DNA of 64,000 nucleotides, taken from Acidobacteriaceae bacterium (GTDB lineage: Bacteria > Acidobacteriota > Terriglobia > Terriglobales > Acidobacteriaceae). The notes under the pieces are model-generated. The model was not told the origin of the DNA. It made no database searches and saw only the letters and a list, made by a program, of their open reading frames with translations. The stretch is from assembly GCA_031296325.1 (NCBI GenBank), contig JARLFY010000025.1, positions 28,844-92,843 on the forward strand, in the 5' to 3' direction. Numbering within the stretch: position 1 is the stretch's first letter; each line of letters begins with the position of its first letter. Shown one piece after another: positions 9,830 to 59,130 of this stretch. The position numbers and the translations under genes are program-made.

Positions 9830-9987
9830 CTCAAACAGAATATGCTATCCGCGCTCGCCGCGTGAATCTGATTATTCCTTGAAGACATTGTCATTCTGAG
9901 CGGAGCAGAGAATCCCCGCATTTGTTCTTGCGGTTGCTTGTCCTAAATCCGCGTTCCTCCGTGCAGATCCGTGGTCGGCCCTTCGCC

Positions 9988-10697: not shown

Positions 10698-10858
10698 TAG
10701 AACATTTCAGAAATTGCTATAGTCCAATTTGTTTGTCATTCCGTAGCATTATTAGTGTGCCATTCCGTCGCGTCTTTTGTTTGTCATTCCGTAGCAAAGC
10801 GAAGGAATCTGCTTTTGCTCACTTCACAACGGTCTGCACCATTACCGAAAGCGCTCTA
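10698..10858 (+). repeat. Family B dispersed repeat
   Basis: TAGAACATTTCAGAAATTGCTATAGTCC ... ACGGTCTGCACCATTACCGAAAGCGCTCTA. Confidence 0.85.
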
Positions 10859-10892: not shown

Positions 10893-11003
10893 AGGGCCAA
10901 GGACGCTAAACCAAGGGCTGAAGGCCCGTTCTATACCAGCCTAGGCCGAAGGCCTAGGGTTACGTTCATCACGGAACCAAGGGCTGAAGGCCCGAACTAT
11001 AAC
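10893..11003. repeat. Family C palindromic intergenic repeat
   Basis: CCAAGGGCTGAAGGCCCGTTCTATACCAGCCTAGGCCGAAGGCCTAGGGTT, second partial copy. Confidence 0.8.
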
Positions 11004-14103: not shown

Positions 14104-14220
14104 TAGCGCATTTCTCGAATTACTGTAGACCAGAGATGAATTGTCATTCTGAGCGGAGCGAAGAATCCCCGCATTTTGCTCGCCCCAAAGACGGTCTACA
14201 CCTTTACCGAAAAAGCTCTA
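14104..14220 (+). repeat. Family A dispersed repeat
   Basis: TAGCGCATTTCTCGAATTACTGTAGACC ... GTCATTCTGAGCGGAGCGAAGAATCCCCGC ... GGTCTACACCTTTACCGAAAAAGCTCTA. Confidence 0.85.
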
Positions 14221-15610: not shown

Positions 15611-15650
15611 TTACGTTGTCATTCTGGCGAAGCCAGAATCCCCGTATTTA
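15611..15650 (+). repeat. Family A short copy with perfect hairpin
   Basis: GTCATTCTGGCGAAGCCAGAATCCCCG. Confidence 0.8.
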
Positions 15651-18651: not shown

Positions 18652-18824
18652 AGCATATTTTTAATTGCTATAGACCAGAAATATATTGTCATTCTGAGCA
18701 ATGCTTTCTTGTGTATTGTCATTCTGAGCGATGCCCTTTTGAGGATTGTCTTTCTGAGCGAAGCGAAGAATCCCCGCATTTTGCTCGCGCCGCAACCGTC
18801 TAAACCATTACCGAAGATGTACTA
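18649..18824 (+). repeat. Family A dispersed repeat with three tandem head units
   Basis: TAGAGCATATTTTTAATTGCTATAGACC ... three ATTGTCATTCTGAGC-like heads ... CCATTACCGAAGATGTACTA. Confidence 0.85.
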
Positions 18825-19736: not shown

Positions 19737-19952
19737 ATTCCGTAGCAATTTGTTGTCATTCCGTAGCACTTTTTGTTGTCATTCCGTAGCGCGAGCGGAG
19801 GAATCTGCTTTTTTGCTTCACAATGGTCTACCCCATTACCAAAAATGTTCTAACCAAGGGCCAAAGGCCCGCTCTATACCAGCCTAGGCCGTAGGCCTAG
19901 GGTTGCATCAGGCAAACAGACTGAGGGCTGAAAGCCCGACCTATACTTTCGC
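19737..19952 (+). repeat. Family B repeat followed by family C
   Basis: GTCATTCCGTAGCGCGAGCGGAGGAATCTGC ... then CCAAGGGCCAAAGGCCCGCTCTATACCAGCCTAGGCCGTAGGCCTAGGG. Confidence 0.8.
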
Positions 19953-20683: not shown

Positions 20684-20769
20684 CGCACAGGCACATTGAA
20701 AAGAGTGGAAGCCAGTAGGAGACCTCTACCCCTTGATGCGTGAAGGATGGCATCTACCCCATCAAGGCG

Positions 20770-20880
20770 TCATTCTGAGCGAAGCTCAGAATCTCTGTCG
20801 TTCTTTCGATCCGGCTGAAACGCCTCCGACCTGCCGGGTGCCCCCATTCATGACGATCATCGTCATGGGTGGGAGTCAAT
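20770..20880 (+). repeat. Family A short perfect hairpin followed by family D hairpin variant
   Basis: ATTCTGAGC-GAA-GCTCAGAAT; CCCCCATTCATGACG-ATCAT-CGTCATGGGTGGGAG. Confidence 0.75.
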
Positions 20881-22022: not shown

Positions 22023-22170
22023 GTTTCGTCATCCTGAGCGAAGCGAAGAGTCCCCGCATTTTGCTCGCACCATGAAACTCTACCCCTTTGAGCTATTCGG
22101 GATTGCTATAGGCCAATTTGTTTGTCATTCCGTAGCGAAGCAAAGGAATCTGCTTTTGCTCGCTCGACAC
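22023..22170 (+). repeat. Adjacent family A and family B copies
   Basis: GTCATCCTGAGCGAAGCGAAGAGTCCCCGCATTTTGCTCGC then GTCATTCCGTAGCGAAGCAAAGGAATCTGCTTTTGC. Confidence 0.75.
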
Positions 22171-23647: not shown

Positions 23648-24706
23648 ATGGATGCGATGAATACTCTTTTCAGCGGCAATGCGCTGCTCGCGCTGGCTGC
23701 GGCGGCAATCTGGGGCGGCAGCGACTTCTCCGGCGGCATGGGCGTCAAGGCCGCCGGGGGCAGCGTTCGCGCGGCTCTGCGCGTCATTCTGCTCAGCCAC
23801 ATCACCAGCTTTGTCGTACTCCTCGGCATCGCGCACCTACGCGGAGACGCCGCTCCACACGGCGCCCTGCTGGCCTGGGGACTGGCCGCAGGAGTGCTCG
23901 GCGGACTCTCCCTGACGGCCTTCTACATCGCTCTCTCGCGCGGAGCAATGGGCGCGTCGGCCGCGATCAGCGGACTACTGGCCGCAGCCATTCCCGCCGC
24001 CGTAGCAATGTGGATGGACGGCTCTCCGGGTGCGCGCCCCCTGCTCGGCTTCGTCGTGGCAGGGCTGGCAATCTGGCTGATCGCCGCCGGATCAGCCGAT
24101 GAGACATCTCGCGGGGAAACTCCCCCCATCGCCAGCGGAACCATGCTGCTGGCAACGCTGGCAGGCGTCGGCTTTGGATTCTATTTTGTAGCGCTCAAGA
24201 TGGCCGGTCCCGCAGGAGTAATCTGGCCGATGGCCACCTCGCGCATCGGCAGCCTCTGCGTCTGCTCGCTCATGCTTTTGGCTCTACAGCATTTTGCGAA
24301 TTGCAATAGATCAGGAGAAATTTGTCATCCTGAGCAAAGCCCCCTTGAGAATTGTCATTCTGAGCGAAGCGAAGAATCCCCGCATTTTGCTCGCACTACG
24401 ACGCTCTGCCCCATTAATAAAAATGCGCCAGCCTCGCGATCCGACAAAGCAACCGAGCCACGCATCCGCCTCAACCGCAAAGCCGTCGGTTGGGCTTTGG
24501 CGACCGCGCTGCTGGATACCTCGGGCAATATGCTCTTTGTAGCGGCGACCCGCGCCGGCAGGCTGGACGTAGCCGCCGTGCTGGCCTCGCTCTACCCCGC
24601 GACCACCATTCTGCTGGCGGCGCTGGCTCTGGGCGAATGGCCTACCCGTCGGCAGGCCATCGGCATGGCCACCGCAGCGATCGCCGTAGTCCTGATCGCG
24701 CTGTAG
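23648..24706 (+). CDS. EamA/DMT-family membrane transporter containing an in-frame repeat insertion
   Basis: Multi-TM; AAAAIWGGSDFSGG; second half VGWALATALLDTSGNMLFVAATRAGRLDVAAVLASLYPATTILLAALALGEWPTRRQ; interrupted by [13 protein letters not shown] segment. Confidence 0.85.
   Translation: MDAMNTLFSGNALLALAAAAIWGGSDFSGGMGVKAAGGSVRAALRVILLSHITSFVVLLGIAHLRGDAAPHGALLAWGLAAGVLGGLSLTAFYIALSRGAMGASAAISGLLAAAIPAAVAMWMDGSPGARPLLGFVVAGLAIWLIAAGSADETSRGETPPIASGTMLLATLAGVGFGFYFVALKMAGPAGVIWPMATSRIGSLCVCSLMLLALQHFANCNRSGEICHPEQSPLENCHSERSEESPHFARTTTLCPINKNAPASRSDKATEPRIRLNRKAVGWALATALLDTSGNMLFVAATRAGRLDVAAVLASLYPATTILLAALALGEWPTRRQAIGMATAAIAVVLIAL
24285..24428 (+). repeat. Family A repeat inside the EamA transporter gene
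   Basis: TACAGCATTTTGCGAATTGCAATAGATC ... GTCATTCTGAGCGAAGCGAAGAATCCCCGCATTTTGCTCGC ... CCATTAATAAAAATGCGC. Confidence 0.9.
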
Positions 24707-24736: not shown

Positions 24737-24828
24737 AATGAATTGTCCTTCTGAACGAAGCGAAGAATCCCCGCATTTCGTTCGCCCCGCGACGCTCAAC
24801 CTCATCGGCGAGAATGCTCCAAACCACG
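24737..24828 (+). repeat. Family A repeat
   Basis: TTGTCCTTCTGAACGAAGCGAAGAATCCCCGCATTTCGTTCGC ... GGCGAGAATGCTCC. Confidence 0.75.
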
Positions 24829-25998: not shown

Positions 25999-26245
25999 CT
26001 GGAATAAAGCTATTTCAGACCTGCTATCCCCTTTTGTTTGTCATTCCGTAGCAACGCGAAGAAATCTGCTTCTGCCCTTGCTCCTGTTTTTGTTTGTCAT
26101 TCCCGAAGGGAATCTGCTTTTGCCTTTGCTTTTGTCTTTGTCTTTGTCTTTGTCTTTGTCTTTGTTTGTCATTCTGAGCGAAGCGAAGAATCCCCGCATT
26201 TCGCCGACCGCCGCAACGCCCTACCCCATTACCAAAAACGCTCTA
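25999..26245 (+). repeat. Composite family B + hexanucleotide array + family A
   Basis: GTCATTCCCGAAGGGAATCTGCTTTTGCC(TTTGTC)n TTTGTCATTCTGAGCGAAGCGAAGAATCCCCGC ... GCTCTA. Confidence 0.85.
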
Positions 26246-27531: not shown

Positions 27532-27735
27532 GCCGGGTGCCCCATCCATCGCGGTTTCATCAGCGATGGGTGGGAGGAATACAGTTCGCACCATAAGTCG
27601 CGGCTTTTGCCTGTTTTTGTTTGTCATCCCCGAAGGGGATCTGCTTTTGCCTTTGCTGTTGCCGTTGCCTCGCCGTTGTCGGGCAAGGGCCAAAGGCCCG
27701 TCCTATACCAGCCCAGGCCGAAGACCTGGGGGTGC
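27532..27735 (+). repeat. Composite family D-B-C repeat
   Basis: GGGTGCCCCATCCATCGCGGTTTCATCAGCGATGGGTGGGAG; GTCATCCCCGAAGGGGATCTGC; AAGGGCCAAAGGCCCG... Confidence 0.8.
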
Positions 27736-29041: not shown

Positions 29042-29392
29042 TGCCGGGTGCCCCATCCATCGCGGTTTCATCAGCAATGGGGGAAGGGATACAGTTCGCA
29101 CCACAAGCCGCTGCTTTTGCCGTTGTCGTTGCCTATCGTTCGTTTGTCATTCCGCAGCCTTTTGTTTGTCGTTGCCTATCGTTTGTCATTCCGCAGCGCC
29201 TGTTGTTTGTCATTCCGCAGCGCGAGCGGAGGAATCTGCTTTTGCCTTTGTCTCTGTCTGGCAAGGGCCAAAGGCCCGTTCTATACCAGCCCAGGCCGAA
29301 GGCCTGGGTCAACGCCCAGCCCAACGACCAGGGGCTGAAGGCCCGCGCTATAGCTCTCTGCGCATCAAAATGCGGTGTCTCGATACGGCCTA
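29042..29392 (+). repeat. Composite family D-B-C repeat
   Basis: Same order as 27532-27735, with multiple tandem GTCATTCCGCAGC heads; ends TCTCGATACGGCCTAG. Confidence 0.8.
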
Positions 29393-31066: not shown

Positions 31067-31182
31067 TAGAGCATTTTCTGAATTGCTATAGACCAAGAAT
31101 GAATTGTCATTCTGAGCGTAGCGAAGAATCCCCGCATTTTGCTCGATCCACGACGGTCTACACCATTACAGAAAATGCTCTA
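31067..31182 (+). repeat. Family A repeat, cleanest terminal inverted repeats (116 bp)
   Basis: TAGAGCATTTTCTGAATTGCTATAGACC ... GGTCTACACCATTACAGAAAATGCTCTA. Confidence 0.9.
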
Positions 31183-37327: not shown

Positions 37328-37659
37328 TAGGTCGGGCCTTCAGCCCTCGGGAGATTGATGGCCTCATACCTAGGGCTTTGCCCTAGGCCGTATCGACATA
37401 TAGCTCTTTTGTGCTTGCAGTTGTGCTTGCTGTTTGTCATTCCGCAGCCTTTTGTTTGTCATTCCGCAGCGCAGCGGTGGTATCTGCTTTTCGCTCGCAC
37501 CACGAAAATCTATCCCCTTGGGGGGAAATACTATAAAGACAACGGCAAAGACAACCGCAACGGCAAAAGCAGATTCCTCCGCTGCGCTGCGGAATAACAA
37601 ACAAAAGAGAGGCAACAGCAGCGTCACAAAGCAACGTGTATATGTCGATACGCCCTAGG
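37328..37659. repeat. Composite: family C, family B forward, family B reverse, inside a 21-bp inverted repeat
   Basis: CCTAGGCCGTATCGACATATA (37382-37402) versus reverse complement at 37639-37659. Confidence 0.85.
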
Positions 37660-43879: not shown

Positions 43880-43980
43880 GGAATGGGGGATAGCCCAATT
43901 TGTTTGTCATTCCGTAGCAAAGTGGAGGAATCTGCTTTTTTCGATGCGCCACGGTCTACAACCACTGCATAAAGGTCTAC
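43880..43980 (+). repeat. Family B repeat
   Basis: TTTGTTTGTCATTCCGTAGCAAAGTGGAGGAATCTGCTTTTTTCG ... CGGTCTAC. Confidence 0.75.
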
Positions 43981-46153: not shown

Positions 46154-46280
46154 CGCTTTCTGGCGAGTAGAGCAGATCCCATAATGGGGGATGCCGTCGT
46201 CGAACAAGCGCAAGCAGATTCCTCCGCTTGCGCTACGGAATGACAACAAGCCGGAATACAGTAAATCGAGAAATGGGCTG
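46151..46280 (-). repeat. Family B repeat, reverse orientation
   Basis: TAGCGCTTTCTGG ... GCAGATTCCTCCGCTTGCGCTACGGAATGAC ... ACAGTAAATCGAGAAATGG. Confidence 0.8.
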
Positions 46281-47565: not shown

Positions 47566-47690
47566 CGTTTTTTGTCATTCCTCGGCGTAAGTTTGCTCGT
47601 CATTCCTCAGCCTCAGCTTGTCATTCCTCAGCCTCTCTTGCTTGTCATTCCGCAGTGAAGCGAAGGAATCTGCTTTTACCTTTCGGATGG
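47566..47690 (+). repeat. Family B repeat with four tandem heads
   Basis: TTGTCATTCCTCGGCG, TCGTCATTCCTCAGCCTC, TTGTCATTCCTCAGCCTC, TTGTCATTCCGCAGTGAAGCGAAGGAATCTGC. Confidence 0.85.
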
Positions 47691-49329: not shown

Positions 49330-50646
49330 ATGGGGATGGCACTGTATAGCTTGCTGCTGATGGTGGGGTTGGCGGTCTGCTCGCCGTGGTGGCTGGCGCG
49401 GATGGTGCGCTATCGCGCCGGCATGAGCCAGCGGCTGGGGCGCGTTCCGGCGGAGCTACAGGCGGCGGTTGCGGGGCGGCAGGTGGTCTGGCTACATGCG
49501 GTCAGCGTGGGCGAGGTGTTGGCGGCGACGCGGCTGGGCGCGGAGTTGGAGGCCGTACTGGGCGCGGGGTGGGTCGTCATGGTTTCGACGACGACCGCGA
49601 CGGGGCAGGCCTTGGCGCGGGAGAGGTTTGGCGCGGCGCGGGTCTTTTACTATCCGCTGGACTTTGCCTGGGCGGTGCGGGCTTATCTGCGAGCGTTGCA
49701 GCCGAAGATGCTGGTTCTGATGGAAAGCGAGCTGTGGCCGCGCATGCTCGTAGAATGCGGGCGGGCGGGAGTGCCGGTCGCCGTAGTGAATGCTCGTGTC
49801 TCGGATCGGAGTTATGCGCGTGGGTTGCGGGTCAAGGCGATCTGGGGACGAGTGCTGCGGCATGTCGATCTGTTCCTCGCGCAGAGCGAGGAGGACGCGC
49901 GGCGGCTGGTCGCAATGGGCGCGCGCGTGGAGGCCGTGCAAGCGACGGGGAACCTGAAGTACGACGTGCGGGCTGCGCGAGAGAGCTGGGTTGCCGAGTT
50001 GATCTTGAAGGTTGCTGCTGGTCGTCCGATTGTGGTCGCGGGCAGCACGGTTGGTGCGGATCGTGTCGATGAAGAACGGATGGTCGTTGCCGCATGGAGA
50101 GGTACAGCGCGGGTCGATCTGAATGCACTTTTAGTCCTAGCTCCACGGCATCCTGAGCGTTTTGAAATGATTGAACACTCAACGGGATATAGGACATTGA
50201 CAGCAAGCAGTCTGAAAGTCGGGGTGCGAAGCGATGAGGCGTTTACGGAGTCAGGATTGGGCAGAGACGGACTGCCAGTCGAAGTAATAGTACTCGATAC
50301 AATTGGCGATCTTGCGGCTGTCTACGGCATTGCAGACCTTGCATTTGTTGGAGGCAGTCTTCTGCCGCATGGTGGACACAATCCTTTGGAGCCAGCTCGG
50401 TTTGGTGTGCCAGTTGTGATGGGATCTTCCTTCGAAAACTTTCGCGATATTGTGACGAAGATGCAGGCGGTTGACGGAATTCGTGCCGTACAAAACGACG
50501 TTGAATTAGAGGAAGTATTCGTTGAGCTGCTGACGGATCGCGCGGCGGCGCGGGCGATGGGCGAGCGGGGGCGGCGGGTGTTTGAGGAGCAACAGGGAGC
50601 GACCGGGCGAGCGGTTGAGGCGTTGGTTGGGATGGTGCGGCGATGA
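49330..50646 (+). CDS. waaA: 3-deoxy-D-manno-octulosonic acid transferase
   Basis: VWLHAVSVGEVLAA; LVLMESELWPRML; ALVIVAPRHPERFE-like LLVLAPRHPERF; GGSLLPHGGHNPLEPARFGVPV. Confidence 0.93.
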   Translation: MGMALYSLLLMVGLAVCSPWWLARMVRYRAGMSQRLGRVPAELQAAVAGRQVVWLHAVSVGEVLAATRLGAELEAVLGAGWVVMVSTTTATGQALARERFGAARVFYYPLDFAWAVRAYLRALQPKMLVLMESELWPRMLVECGRAGVPVAVVNARVSDRSYARGLRVKAIWGRVLRHVDLFLAQSEEDARRLVAMGARVEAVQATGNLKYDVRAARESWVAELILKVAAGRPIVVAGSTVGADRVDEERMVVAAWRGTARVDLNALLVLAPRHPERFEMIEHSTGYRTLTASSLKVGVRSDEAFTESGLGRDGLPVEVIVLDTIGDLAAVYGIADLAFVGGSLLPHGGHNPLEPARFGVPVVMGSSFENFRDIVTKMQAVDGIRAVQNDVELEEVFVELLTDRAAARAMGERGRRVFEEQQGATGRAVEALVGMVRR

Positions 50647-51713
50647 GGGCGCGGAGATGGTGGGGCTGGCCGTTGGTGCCGGTCTATGCGGCGGGGCTGG
50701 CGGTTCGAGATTGGATGCGGCGTAAGGGATGGCTGCGGGTTCGGCGGCTGGAGTGGCCGGTCGTCAGTGTGGGAAGCCTGTCTGCGGGCGGCGCGGGGAA
50801 GACTCCGGTGGTGATTGCGCTGGCGGAGCTGCTGCGGGCGCAGGGCTGGTCGGTCGACGTGTTGTCGCGGGGGTATGGGCGCGCGGGGACAGGCGTGGAG
50901 CGGGTGAATTTGGCGGCGCAGAATGCGGCTGGGCGATTTGGCGATGAGCCGACTCTGATCGCGCAGAAGGCTGGGGTTCCGGTTTGGGTTGGGGCAGAGC
51001 GGTTTGCGGCGGGAGTGGCTGCGGAGAGCTTTGCGGCTGGCGGAGGAGAAGCAGACTCCTCCGCTTCGCTGCGGAATGACAAACAAGAATCGCTGCGGAA
51101 TAACAAAAAGAAAGTGCATCTGCTGGATGATGGGTTTCAACACTGGAGGCTGGCTCGGACGGTGGAGGCGGTACTGGTAACAGAGGAGGATCTGGACGAT
51201 GCTCTGTTGCCTAGGGGGAATCGGCGGGAACGGCTGACGGCGCTGGCGCGGGCGGATGTAGTTGTGCTGAGGGATGAGGAGCGCGGGCGGGTGGAGGCTC
51301 GTGTGCGTCGCTGGATGCGCGAGGGTGCGGCGATCTGGAGTGTGCGGCGAGAGCTGCGCGTTGGCGATTCGCTCGGCGAGGCAAAGGCGCATGTGCAGAC
51401 GCTGGGGTTCTGCGCGATTGCGCGGCCGGAGGGATTCTGGGGAATGCTGGGCGATGTGGGGTTCGCCCTGGCCGAAATGGTGGATTTCGGCGATCATCAT
51501 GCCTATACGATAAGAGATATAGATGCTCTGGCGACGAAGGCGAAGGCTCTTGGCGCGACGGGCTTCGTCACGACGGAGAAGGATGCGGTGAAGTTGAGCG
51601 GGGCAATGATGGAGCGGTTGCGCGAGGTTGGGCCGGTCTGCGTAGCGGGGCTGGAGGCGCGGTTTGTGGATGAGGCGGATGTGATGCGCGGGCTGGAGGC
51701 GCGCTGCCAGTGA
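50643..51713 (+). CDS. lpxK: Tetraacyldisaccharide 4'-kinase containing an in-frame repeat insertion
   Basis: VVSVGSLSAGGAGKTPVVIALAELL; HLLDDGFQHWRLAR; ATGA overlap with waaA. Confidence 0.93.
   Translation: MRARRWWGWPLVPVYAAGLAVRDWMRRKGWLRVRRLEWPVVSVGSLSAGGAGKTPVVIALAELLRAQGWSVDVLSRGYGRAGTGVERVNLAAQNAAGRFGDEPTLIAQKAGVPVWVGAERFAAGVAAESFAAGGGEADSSASLRNDKQESLRNNKKKVHLLDDGFQHWRLARTVEAVLVTEEDLDDALLPRGNRRERLTALARADVVVLRDEERGRVEARVRRWMREGAAIWSVRRELRVGDSLGEAKAHVQTLGFCAIARPEGFWGMLGDVGFALAEMVDFGDHHAYTIRDIDALATKAKALGATGFVTTEKDAVKLSGAMMERLREVGPVCVAGLEARFVDEADVMRGLEARCQ
51043..51113 (-). repeat. Family B repeat inside lpxK, reverse orientation
   Basis: GGAGAAGCAGACTCCTCCGCTTCGCTGCGGAATGACAAACAAGAATCGCTGCGGAATAACAAAAAG. 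Confidence 0.9.
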
Positions 51714-56252: not shown

Positions 56253-57221
56253 ATGACCCTCCACGAAGCCCTCCAACTCGCAACCCGCCAGCTTGAATCC
56301 TCCGCCGAACTGCGCGCCGACGCAGCGCGTGACGCAGCATTTCTGTTGCGTCACGCGCTGGCAATCTCCCTCGCAGCACAACTCGCCGATCCTGACCGTC
56401 CTCTCACGCCAGCCCAGCAGAGCGCATACGAAGCCCTCATCCAGCGTCGCCTGCGCAACGAGCCGATCCAGTACATCACCGGCGAGCAGGAGTTTTACGG
56501 CCTCGCCCTCGGCGTCACGCCCGCTGTCCTCATTCCGCGCCCCGAGACCGAGCATTTAGTCGAATCCGTCCTCGCCGAGTTTGCGGCTCATCCCGCAGCC
56601 TCAGCTTTTCATCCCACAACCGGGTCTTGTCCAGCCAATCCTGACTCCCATCCCACAAACTTTGCTTGTCATCCCACAGCGAAGCGAAGGGATCCGCTTC
56701 TCCCTTCCCACTCTCTCCGCATCCTGGACATCGGAACCGGCTCAGGAGCCATCGCCATCGCGCTGGCCCACCACCTGCCTAACACGCAGATCACCGCCGT
56801 CGATCTCTCGCCCGCCGCGCTCGCGGTCGCCGCGGCAAACGCCGCGCGCCACGGTCTCGCCGACCGCATCCGCTTCGTGCAATCCGACCTGCTCGCCGCG
56901 TTTTCCACCGACGATCTACCGTTTGACGCCATCGTCTCCAACCCGCCCTACGTTCCCACCGCAGATCGTGCCACGCTCCACCCGCAGGTGCGTGACCACG
57001 AGCCGTCCTCTGCGCTCTTCGCCGGTGCAGATGGCCTCGACATATATCGTCGTCTGATTCCGCAAGCCCGCGCCGCGCTCGTTCCCAACGGTCTGCTGGC
57101 CATTGAGATTGGCCACGAGCAGCGCGATCCAATCGCCGCCCTGCTCGCTGACTGGTTCCAACTCCGCTTCGTCGACGACCTGCAAGGCATTCCGCGCATC
57201 GCTCTGGCTCGCAAGCCCTGA
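56253..57221 (+). CDS. prmC: Release-factor glutamine methyltransferase containing an in-frame repeat insertion
   Basis: PIQYITGEQEFYGLALGVTPAVLIPRPETEHLVE; ILDIGTGSGAIAIALA; FDAIVSNPPYV. Confidence 0.93.
   Translation: MTLHEALQLATRQLESSAELRADAARDAAFLLRHALAISLAAQLADPDRPLTPAQQSAYEALIQRRLRNEPIQYITGEQEFYGLALGVTPAVLIPRPETEHLVESVLAEFAAHPAASAFHPTTGSCPANPDSHPTNFACHPTAKRRDPLLPSHSLRILDIGTGSGAIAIALAHHLPNTQITAVDLSPAALAVAAANAARHGLADRIRFVQSDLLAAFSTDDLPFDAIVSNPPYVPTADRATLHPQVRDHEPSSALFAGADGLDIYRRLIPQARAALVPNGLLAIEIGHEQRDPIAALLADWFQLRFVDDLQGIPRIALARKP
56584..56712 (+). repeat. Family B repeat inside prmC
   Basis: CATCCCGCAGCCTCAGC..., final head CTTGTCATCCCACAGCGAAGCGAAGGGATCCGCTTCTCCC. Confidence 0.88.
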
Positions 57222-59045: not shown

Positions 59046-59130
59046 GAATTGTCATCCTGAGTAAGCGCAAAGCGCGAGTCGAAGGATCTGCGTTTTCTTC
59101 GCGCCGCGATACTCTACAGGTAAAAATTCT
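59046..59130 (+). repeat. Divergent family B repeat
   Basis: TTGTCATCCTGAGTAAGCGCAAAGCGCGAGTCGAAGGATCTGCGTTTTCTTCGCGC ... ACTCTACAGGTAAAAATTC. Confidence 0.7.

Follow-up and report, generated by a model that had tools for sequence, protein, structure and literature searches.

A covarying GNA-capped hairpin at the core of a TGTC-tagged repeat in an Acidobacteriaceae genome

Results

Repeat units in the 64-kb window

The host genome is a Granulicella-like Acidobacteriaceae MAG, a 2.6-Mb draft in 94 contigs that is 88.8% complete. The nearest named relatives of its ddl are in Granulicella MAGs (79% protein identity). The window, which is the whole stretch of 64,000 nucleotides that was analyzed, contains A and B hairpin units, shorter and variant forms, and in-frame units within lpxK and prmC (Table 1). 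The five hairpins quoted in the original prediction are present (15621-15639, 20772-20792, 26099-26113, 27626-27640 and, as GCGC-AAA-GCGC inside ATCCT...AGGAT, 59051), as are the GCGA loops reported for some B copies (19778, 29209, 44707 and 61452, with GCAA at 46244) and the ATCCC...GGGAT unit reported in prmC (56668..56693).

Table 1. Repeat units and related features in the window.
Feature	Position	Strand	Evidence
GTC tag and perfect-stem hairpin ATTCTGGC-GAA-GCCAGAAT (main finding)	15618..15639	+	exact sequence; DNA fold -6.8 kcal/mol, z -5.4
GTC tag and perfect-stem hairpin ATTCTGAGC-GAA-GCTCAGAAT	20769..20792	+	sequence
15-mer hairpin ATTCCC-GAA-GGGAAT with GTC tag	26096..26113	+	
15-mer hairpin ATCCCC-GAA-GGGGAT with GTC tag; pair 3 compensated T-A to C-G	27623..27640	+	
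Fold-back element, complete, 116 nt; A unit 31106-31129 between 28-nt outer arms TAGAGCATTTTCTGAATTGCTATAGACC / GGTCTACACCATTACAGAAAATGCTCTA	31067..31182	+	
A unit, loop GGA	14143..14166	+	
A unit, 3' half decayed	9890..9913	+	
A unit; two tandem 5'-half copies upstream (18679-18740)	18748..18771	+	
A unit, ATCCT...AGAGT, decayed	22028..22051	+	
A unit; 5'-half copy upstream (24324)	24354..24377	+	
A unit, CTTCT...AGAAT	24745..24768	+	
A unit, loop GAA	26168..26191	+	
B unit, internal pair GTA/GAA	8117..8142	+	
B unit	10783..10808	+	
B unit, GCGA tetraloop	19778..19804	+	
B unit	22124..22149	+	
B unit, decayed	26040..26065	+	
B unit, GCGA tetraloop; 5'-half copies upstream	29209..29235	+	
B unit, left member of inverted tags-out pair with 37565-37607	37458..37483	+	
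B unit, right member of tags-out pair with 37458-37483	37565..37607	-	
B unit	43906..43931	+	
B unit, GCGA tetraloop	44681..44707	-	
B unit, GCAA tetraloop	46218..46244	-	
B unit	47644..47669	+	
B unit and 5'-half copy, in frame in lpxK (ORF 50643-51713)	51023..51107	-	alignment to relatives
B-type unit ATCCC...GGGAT and half copies, in frame in prmC (ORF 56253-57221)	56668..56693	+	insertion vs L128
Variant ATCCT...GCGC-AAA-GCGC...AGGAT	59051..59088	+	
B unit, GCGA tetraloop	61426..61452	-	

The pattern GTCATYCYN4-16RGRATC has 469 copies in the whole 2.6-Mb genome compared to 0 for a reversed-pattern control. The mean density is one unit per 5.5 kb, and copy number ranges from 6 to 469 per genome within the same genus. 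An unbiased copy set was drawn from 2.12 Mb of the genome, read in stretches, by fixing only the 5' tag (TTGTC) and the 3' tail; the interior was left free, so paired arms were not selected. The interiors of the ~380 units recovered are nearly all A-21, B-23, B-24, 13/15-mer or perfect-stem forms.

Architecture of the unit

Each unit consists of TGTC, a hairpin, and a C. In the unbiased set, the A-21 form reads ATTCT-GA-GC-GNA-GC-GA-AGAAT and the B-23 form reads ATTCC-GYA-GC-GNA-GC-GRA-GGAAT. B-24 units carry the loops GCGA, GCAA, GTGA or GAAA, the 15-mers read AT(T/C)CC-C-GNA-G-GG(A/G)AT, and the 13-mers read ATCCC-GTA-GGGAT; perfect long stems are likewise present. The A stem has nine positions, two of which are G.A, and the perfect variants span 6-10 bp. 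The first two A stem pairs are nearly invariant in this genome (AT in 108/117 copies and TA in 117/117). The G.A and A.G positions are retained in 112/117 and 109/117 A copies, respectively, and in 214/225 B copies. The tail in this genome is CCCC or CTGC.

Units in other hosts were taken from IMG/VR contigs, and the cross-host counts given throughout are samples among the matches listed, taken without host phylogeny. The flanks were read from a search with the hairpin alone, which did not require the tag. Positions -4 to -1 were T in 101/131, G in 118, T in 120 and C in 113 of these units among the matches listed. Outside the hairpin, only TGTC before it and C-T/C-C after it are conserved across hosts, and nothing beyond, among the matches listed. 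The B-23 form was not found in viral contigs. A 26-nt sister form, ATTGC...GCAAT, is present in Microgenomates and in one Spirochaetaceae genome.

The loop follows a simple rule. Among 117 A copies the loop is GAA in 31, GCA in 29, GGA in 25 and GTA in 21, for a GNA total of 106/117. In the 70 exact A copies, the central loop base is split nearly evenly (16-19 each) and all else is fixed. The loop is also GNA in 126/160 cross-host units among the matches listed. Loops are mostly 3-nt GNA, and 4-nt GNRA loops are confined to the B-24 subset. The GAA or GCGA loop of the original prediction thus named two forms that do occur, but the rule is broader: GNA with all four N, and GNRA for the tetraloops. 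According to PMC4686876, stable DNA mini-hairpins combine a loop of the form GNA or GNNA with two or more closing G-C pairs, and the A and B caps are built this way. Such freedom at the central base, next to a fixed G and A, is expected under the GNA mini-hairpin rule.

Two other sequence families were noted. A hairpin sub-family elsewhere in the genome, ATTCTGACACTGCACGAAGTGCAGGGGAAGAAT, carries CTGCAC-GAA-GTGCAG within ATTCT...AGAAT arms and also occurs as CTGAAC-GAA-GTTCAG within the same arms, a compensated transversion. A 16-mer, GCCGTATCGACATATA, recurs at about -55 upstream of B units in this genome, with parts of it found up to 27 times.

Insertions, half copies and fold-back elements

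The units in lpxK and prmC are insertions. Alignment shows that the lpxK insertion (51023-51107) is polymorphic: it is absent in four relatives, and a fifth has a different palindrome there. The protein scores above the TIGR00682 cut-off. The prmC repeat array (56520-56700) is absent in L128 and sits in the linker before the methyltransferase domain of a protein that scores above the TIGR03534 cut-off. These in-frame arrays recall the Rickettsia palindromic elements. Empty orthologous sites were not found in L115-L118, where there is no synteny past ddl.

In 48 of the 101 B copies that are incomplete, the departure from the consensus falls precisely on the first base of the loop. Half copies run straight into another tag in 37 cases, with 19 different fillers, and 3'-only copies are rare. 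Half copies that end at the loop place the breakpoints at the hairpin tip, in DNA. Tandem arrays of 5' halves (TTTGTCATTCCGCAGC plus CTTTTG, with a period of ~22-24 nt) lead into a full unit at 10727-10803, 29142-29243 and 37406-37485, and their growth is one-directional. Paired units are arranged tags-out (HH) in 15 cases, tags-in (TT) in 1 and in tandem (HT) in 23.

About 40 units are centered in fold-back elements that usually measure 113-117 nt and have outer arms of 28 nt (TAGAGCATTTT...AAAATGCTCTA). Nearly all of these elements (~40 places and 31067-31182) have an A or B hairpin inside, and an empty element was not found in this genome. The outer arms match slightly better within an element than between elements. 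The DNA fold of the element at 31067-31182 (-23.8 kcal/mol, z -6.1) is far better than its shuffles. An autonomous element sharing the outer arms was sought and rejected, as the only arm pairs more than 1 kb apart resemble chance neighboring short elements.

Covariation of the arms

Within this genome, the two sides change together at specific pairs. The A pair 3/19 has 7 compensated and 1 one-sided change, the A pair 8/14 has 7 and 9, and the B pair 3/21 has 7 and 7. The B pair 7/17 occurs as CG (86), TA (64), TG (48) and CA (21). The remaining stem pairs, pooled over A and B, have 84 one-sided changes versus 2 compensated. The original prediction that pairing is kept through changes on both sides therefore describes A 3/19, A 8/14, B 3/21 and, in part, B 7/17, but not the other pairs in the genome. 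Corrected mutual information ranks the same pairs at the top here (3/19 and 8/14 in A, 3/21 in B). In B, the column pair 7/12 is second, and 7/17 rises above threshold only when all copies are counted. Copies inside one genome share ancestry, so per-copy p-values are inflated. An asymmetry between G.T and A.C pairs was rejected as a strand test; it is weak and inconsistent from pair to pair.

In the cross-host set, where three arm bases per side were left free, 133/142 units are fully complementary compared to 38.7 expected for independent arms, and nine arm types occur among these 142 units of the matches listed. With pair 3 alone free, the counts are TA 65, CG 44, AT 11, GC 9 and TG 2, with other pairs absent; pair 3 is Watson-Crick in 129/131 units and takes all four forms among the matches listed. 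Among the 31 distinct cores, pairing holds in 96.8% of cells, and changes on both sides number 31, versus 9.5 in shuffles and at most 6 with the partner slid, again among the matches listed. The top three mutual-information pairs in the cross-host matches listed (3/19, 5/17 and 4/18) are all structural. The arms in other genomes of the class are TCT/AGA, CCT/AGG, TCC/GGA, CCC/GGG and GCT/AGC among the matches listed. The arms covary in a fold-specific manner. The predicted covariation at the arm positions is borne out, with structural pairs ranking highest both here and among the cross-host matches listed. Both-side changes are in excess across hosts among the matches listed, and one-sided changes prevail at most pairs within the genome.

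Compensated changes mark source lineages, and resident copies decay one-sidedly. Compensation between source lineages together with one-sided decay of residents indicates a constraint at the copying step, not one on the individual resident copies. The compensated changes could instead be a mutational by-product, in which the polymerase switches template and copies one arm onto the other without selection or recognition. Perfect variants such as ATTCTGAGC-GAA-GCTCAGAAT (four copies in 2.1 Mb of the genome) resemble one arm copied to the other, and the half copies put breakpoints at the loop. Such switching would also repair the G.A and A.G positions, yet these are kept in the great majority of A and B copies; the loop retains its G and A while the middle base varies, and most one-sided changes in residents stay unrepaired. 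Some of the compensated changes probably do arise by template switching within the hairpin. By itself such switching would erase the conserved G.A pairs, and it is an unlikely explanation of the covariation.

Orientation, skew and folding

Units between co-directional genes, called with a crude gene caller, lie 74 with and 82 against transcription. Their orientation tracks GC skew. With the third-codon-position skew corrected for gene strand, the mean is -0.068 for + units and +0.078 for - units (p = 2.8e-18), and across the range of skew values the share of + units drops from 54/67 to 9/69. A whole-stretch flip permutation on raw skew gave p < 5e-5, and the effect is significant for A units, B units and 15-mers separately. 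None of 69 intergenic 7-mers of the tag's composition reaches the skew value of the units. The 8-mer controls on raw skew come closer (minimum -0.043 versus -0.050 for the units), which makes the corrected measure the more trustworthy of the two. On viral contigs, 172/263 units are on the C-rich strand among the matches listed (p = 5e-11). Conserved operons are on the G-rich strand in 5 of 8 cases and not in the other 3. A coding-strand majority was rejected as evidence for the leading strand; it reflects codon-usage bias, and the corrected count is 52.5%. The G-rich strand is the leading strand in most bacteria. If that holds here, with GC skew as a proxy for replication direction, the hairpin as written is on the discontinuously made strand.

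The canonical A hairpin has a predicted DNA fold of -1.9 kcal/mol (z -0.2) in the ViennaRNA DNA model, no better than shuffles, and this model may leave sheared G.A pairs or GNA loops uncredited. For canonical B, ViennaRNA prefers a shifted stem, TCCGC/GCGGA, which was rejected because position 7 covaries with 17 and position 3 with 21.

The hairpin could act as RNA, as a terminator, an mRNA stabilizer or a small RNA, with selection on the transcript preserving the pairing. RNA folds of the units exceed the DNA folds in stability, GNRA tetraloops are a classical RNA motif, and units are denser in convergent gene gaps (94 per 55 kb) than in divergent ones (29 per 55 kb). A neighboring palindrome family is also catalogued as an RNA (Acido-Lenti-1). 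The near-even split relative to transcription argues against an RNA role, since the loop and the G.A pairs make the fold strand-specific; orientation follows GC skew instead. The triloops tolerate any central base, and the only Rfam covariance models above gathering score were tRNA and Acido-Lenti-1, with none at the A or B units. An RNA function is accordingly quite unlikely. DNA is favored over RNA by the loop rule, by an orientation that is random with respect to transcription yet linked to GC skew, and by half copies that end at the loop. The original proposal that selection or the copying mechanism acts on a folded single strand is supported by the covariation in the genome and across hosts, and its DNA half is favored.

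The Acido-Lenti-1 RNA (RF01687) matches lie on the - strand near A and B units (10914-10958, 19857-19901 and 29264-29308). They belong to a separate palindrome family of the GGGCTGAAGGCCC type whose orientation also tracks GC skew genome-wide. Rather than an sRNA, this family may therefore represent mobile palindromic DNA.

A double-stranded dyad whose symmetric half sites are kept by a protein dimer, or by a role as a skewed architectural signal of the chromosome (akin to Chi or KOPS), would fit the average spacing and the strong orientation bias but is highly improbable given the range of copy number within one genus, the units inserted inside genes, and the occurrence of four Watson-Crick pairs at one dyad position and of indel-length variants with matched stems, which are unexpected of a fixed protein site.

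Discussion

The core probably serves a small, non-autonomous, TGTC-tagged REP-type mobile DNA repeat as its module for recognition and folding; the repeat would be propagated as a folded single strand. In the folded written strand, the lower stem would be rich in A-T, the G.A irregularity would be tandem, and a C-G pair would close the GNA or GNNA cap. We infer a single-stranded DNA intermediate and a strand-specific enzyme that would read the tag and the folded strand and then copy or insert the unit, probably while the DNA is single-stranded in replication. Only foldable source copies would propagate, so the arms would change in compensated pairs between source lineages, and inserted copies would then decay freely. 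The data suggest that the repeat spreads as folded single-stranded DNA via a putative enzyme. A wider and more doubtful proposal is that the repeats form a class spanning Acidobacteriota, Microgenomates, Spirochaetota and unassigned hosts. This class would spread without RAYT, through a replication-strand-locked process that reads a folded DNA code of 28 nt (TGTC, covarying arms, G.A irregularity and GNA cap) and has its own single-strand enzyme.

For the question of what mobilizes CGTC/TGTC-tagged repeats, this one offers a high-copy, structurally defined substrate whose loop obeys a rule, which prefers one strand and which occurs in natural compensatory variants. It would also put the d(GCGNAGC) mini-hairpin of the chemists to natural use across a whole genome. 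The lpxK and prmC insertions, both in frame, show that such repeats reshape conserved proteins outside Rickettsia as well.

A RAYT/Y1 transposase was considered as the mobilizer and rejected. A Y1/HUH gene (PF01797) was not found in this genome, which is 88.8% complete. Of the 30 RAYT loci inspected across the order, a single one has a repeat copy within ~1.5 kb and none has copies on both sides; the number of RAYT genes does not correlate with repeat copy number (rho 0.06). None of the open-access papers listed (30 of 65 hits) describes the hairpin core, and an earlier published description of the core sequence may exist.

The d(GCGNAGC) sequences are extraordinarily stable DNA mini-hairpins (Hirao, Yoshizawa, as cited in PMC4686876). 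By sequence, the A cap is exactly of this class, with all four N. The stability, as cited there, is known from synthetic oligonucleotides; unlike these, the cap described here is natural, genome-wide and covarying. The repeat resembles the ends of IS200/IS605 in its strand-specific imperfect hairpins and as mobile DNA tied to replication as single-stranded DNA, but TnpA is not encoded here and no autonomous element was found. In E. coli REPs, mid-stem mismatches matter for TnpAREP (PMC8266576). Like the GTAG-tagged REPs and their RAYTs (E. coli group 2; PMC8266576), the repeat combines a tag with a folded single strand and a mid-stem irregularity, and it is strand-specific, non-autonomous and found in inverted pairs. 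It differs in having TGTC in place of a GTAG or GGAG tag, its genome has no RAYT, and RAYT loci in the order are without flanking copies of it.

The closest match is the CGTC-tagged REP super-family (Di Nocera et al. 2013), which includes Neisseria dRS3 and Rickettsia RPE-4/RPE-6 and has no associated transposase, its mobilizing agent having been left open (PMC3733652). These REPs have an unpaired CGTC (or TGTC/CCTC) at one end, A-T as the first two stem pairs, a stem of 8-9 bp, a loop of 4-5 nt and a tail fitting CCA, and among their dimers HH predominate, TT are rare and HT are negligible (PMC3733652). The repeat shares the TGTC tag variant, the two A-T pairs, a short unpaired tail, a large excess of tags-out over tags-in pairs (15:1), in-frame intragenic units and the lack of a transposase. 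It differs in its GNA/GNRA loop, its C(T/C)C tail, the tandem or split G.A irregularity in the stem and the HT tandem arrays with half copies, and Acidobacteriota and the CPR phylum Microgenomates are outside the phyla listed for the super-family. The mismatch in loop length and tail sets the repeat apart from the four Di Nocera families (PMC3733652), under which it is not filed, by their descriptions rather than by the sequences in their Figure 2. Judged by its sequence features, the repeat appears to be close kin of the CGTC/TGTC-tagged REPs, from which it differs in loop, stem irregularity and tail.
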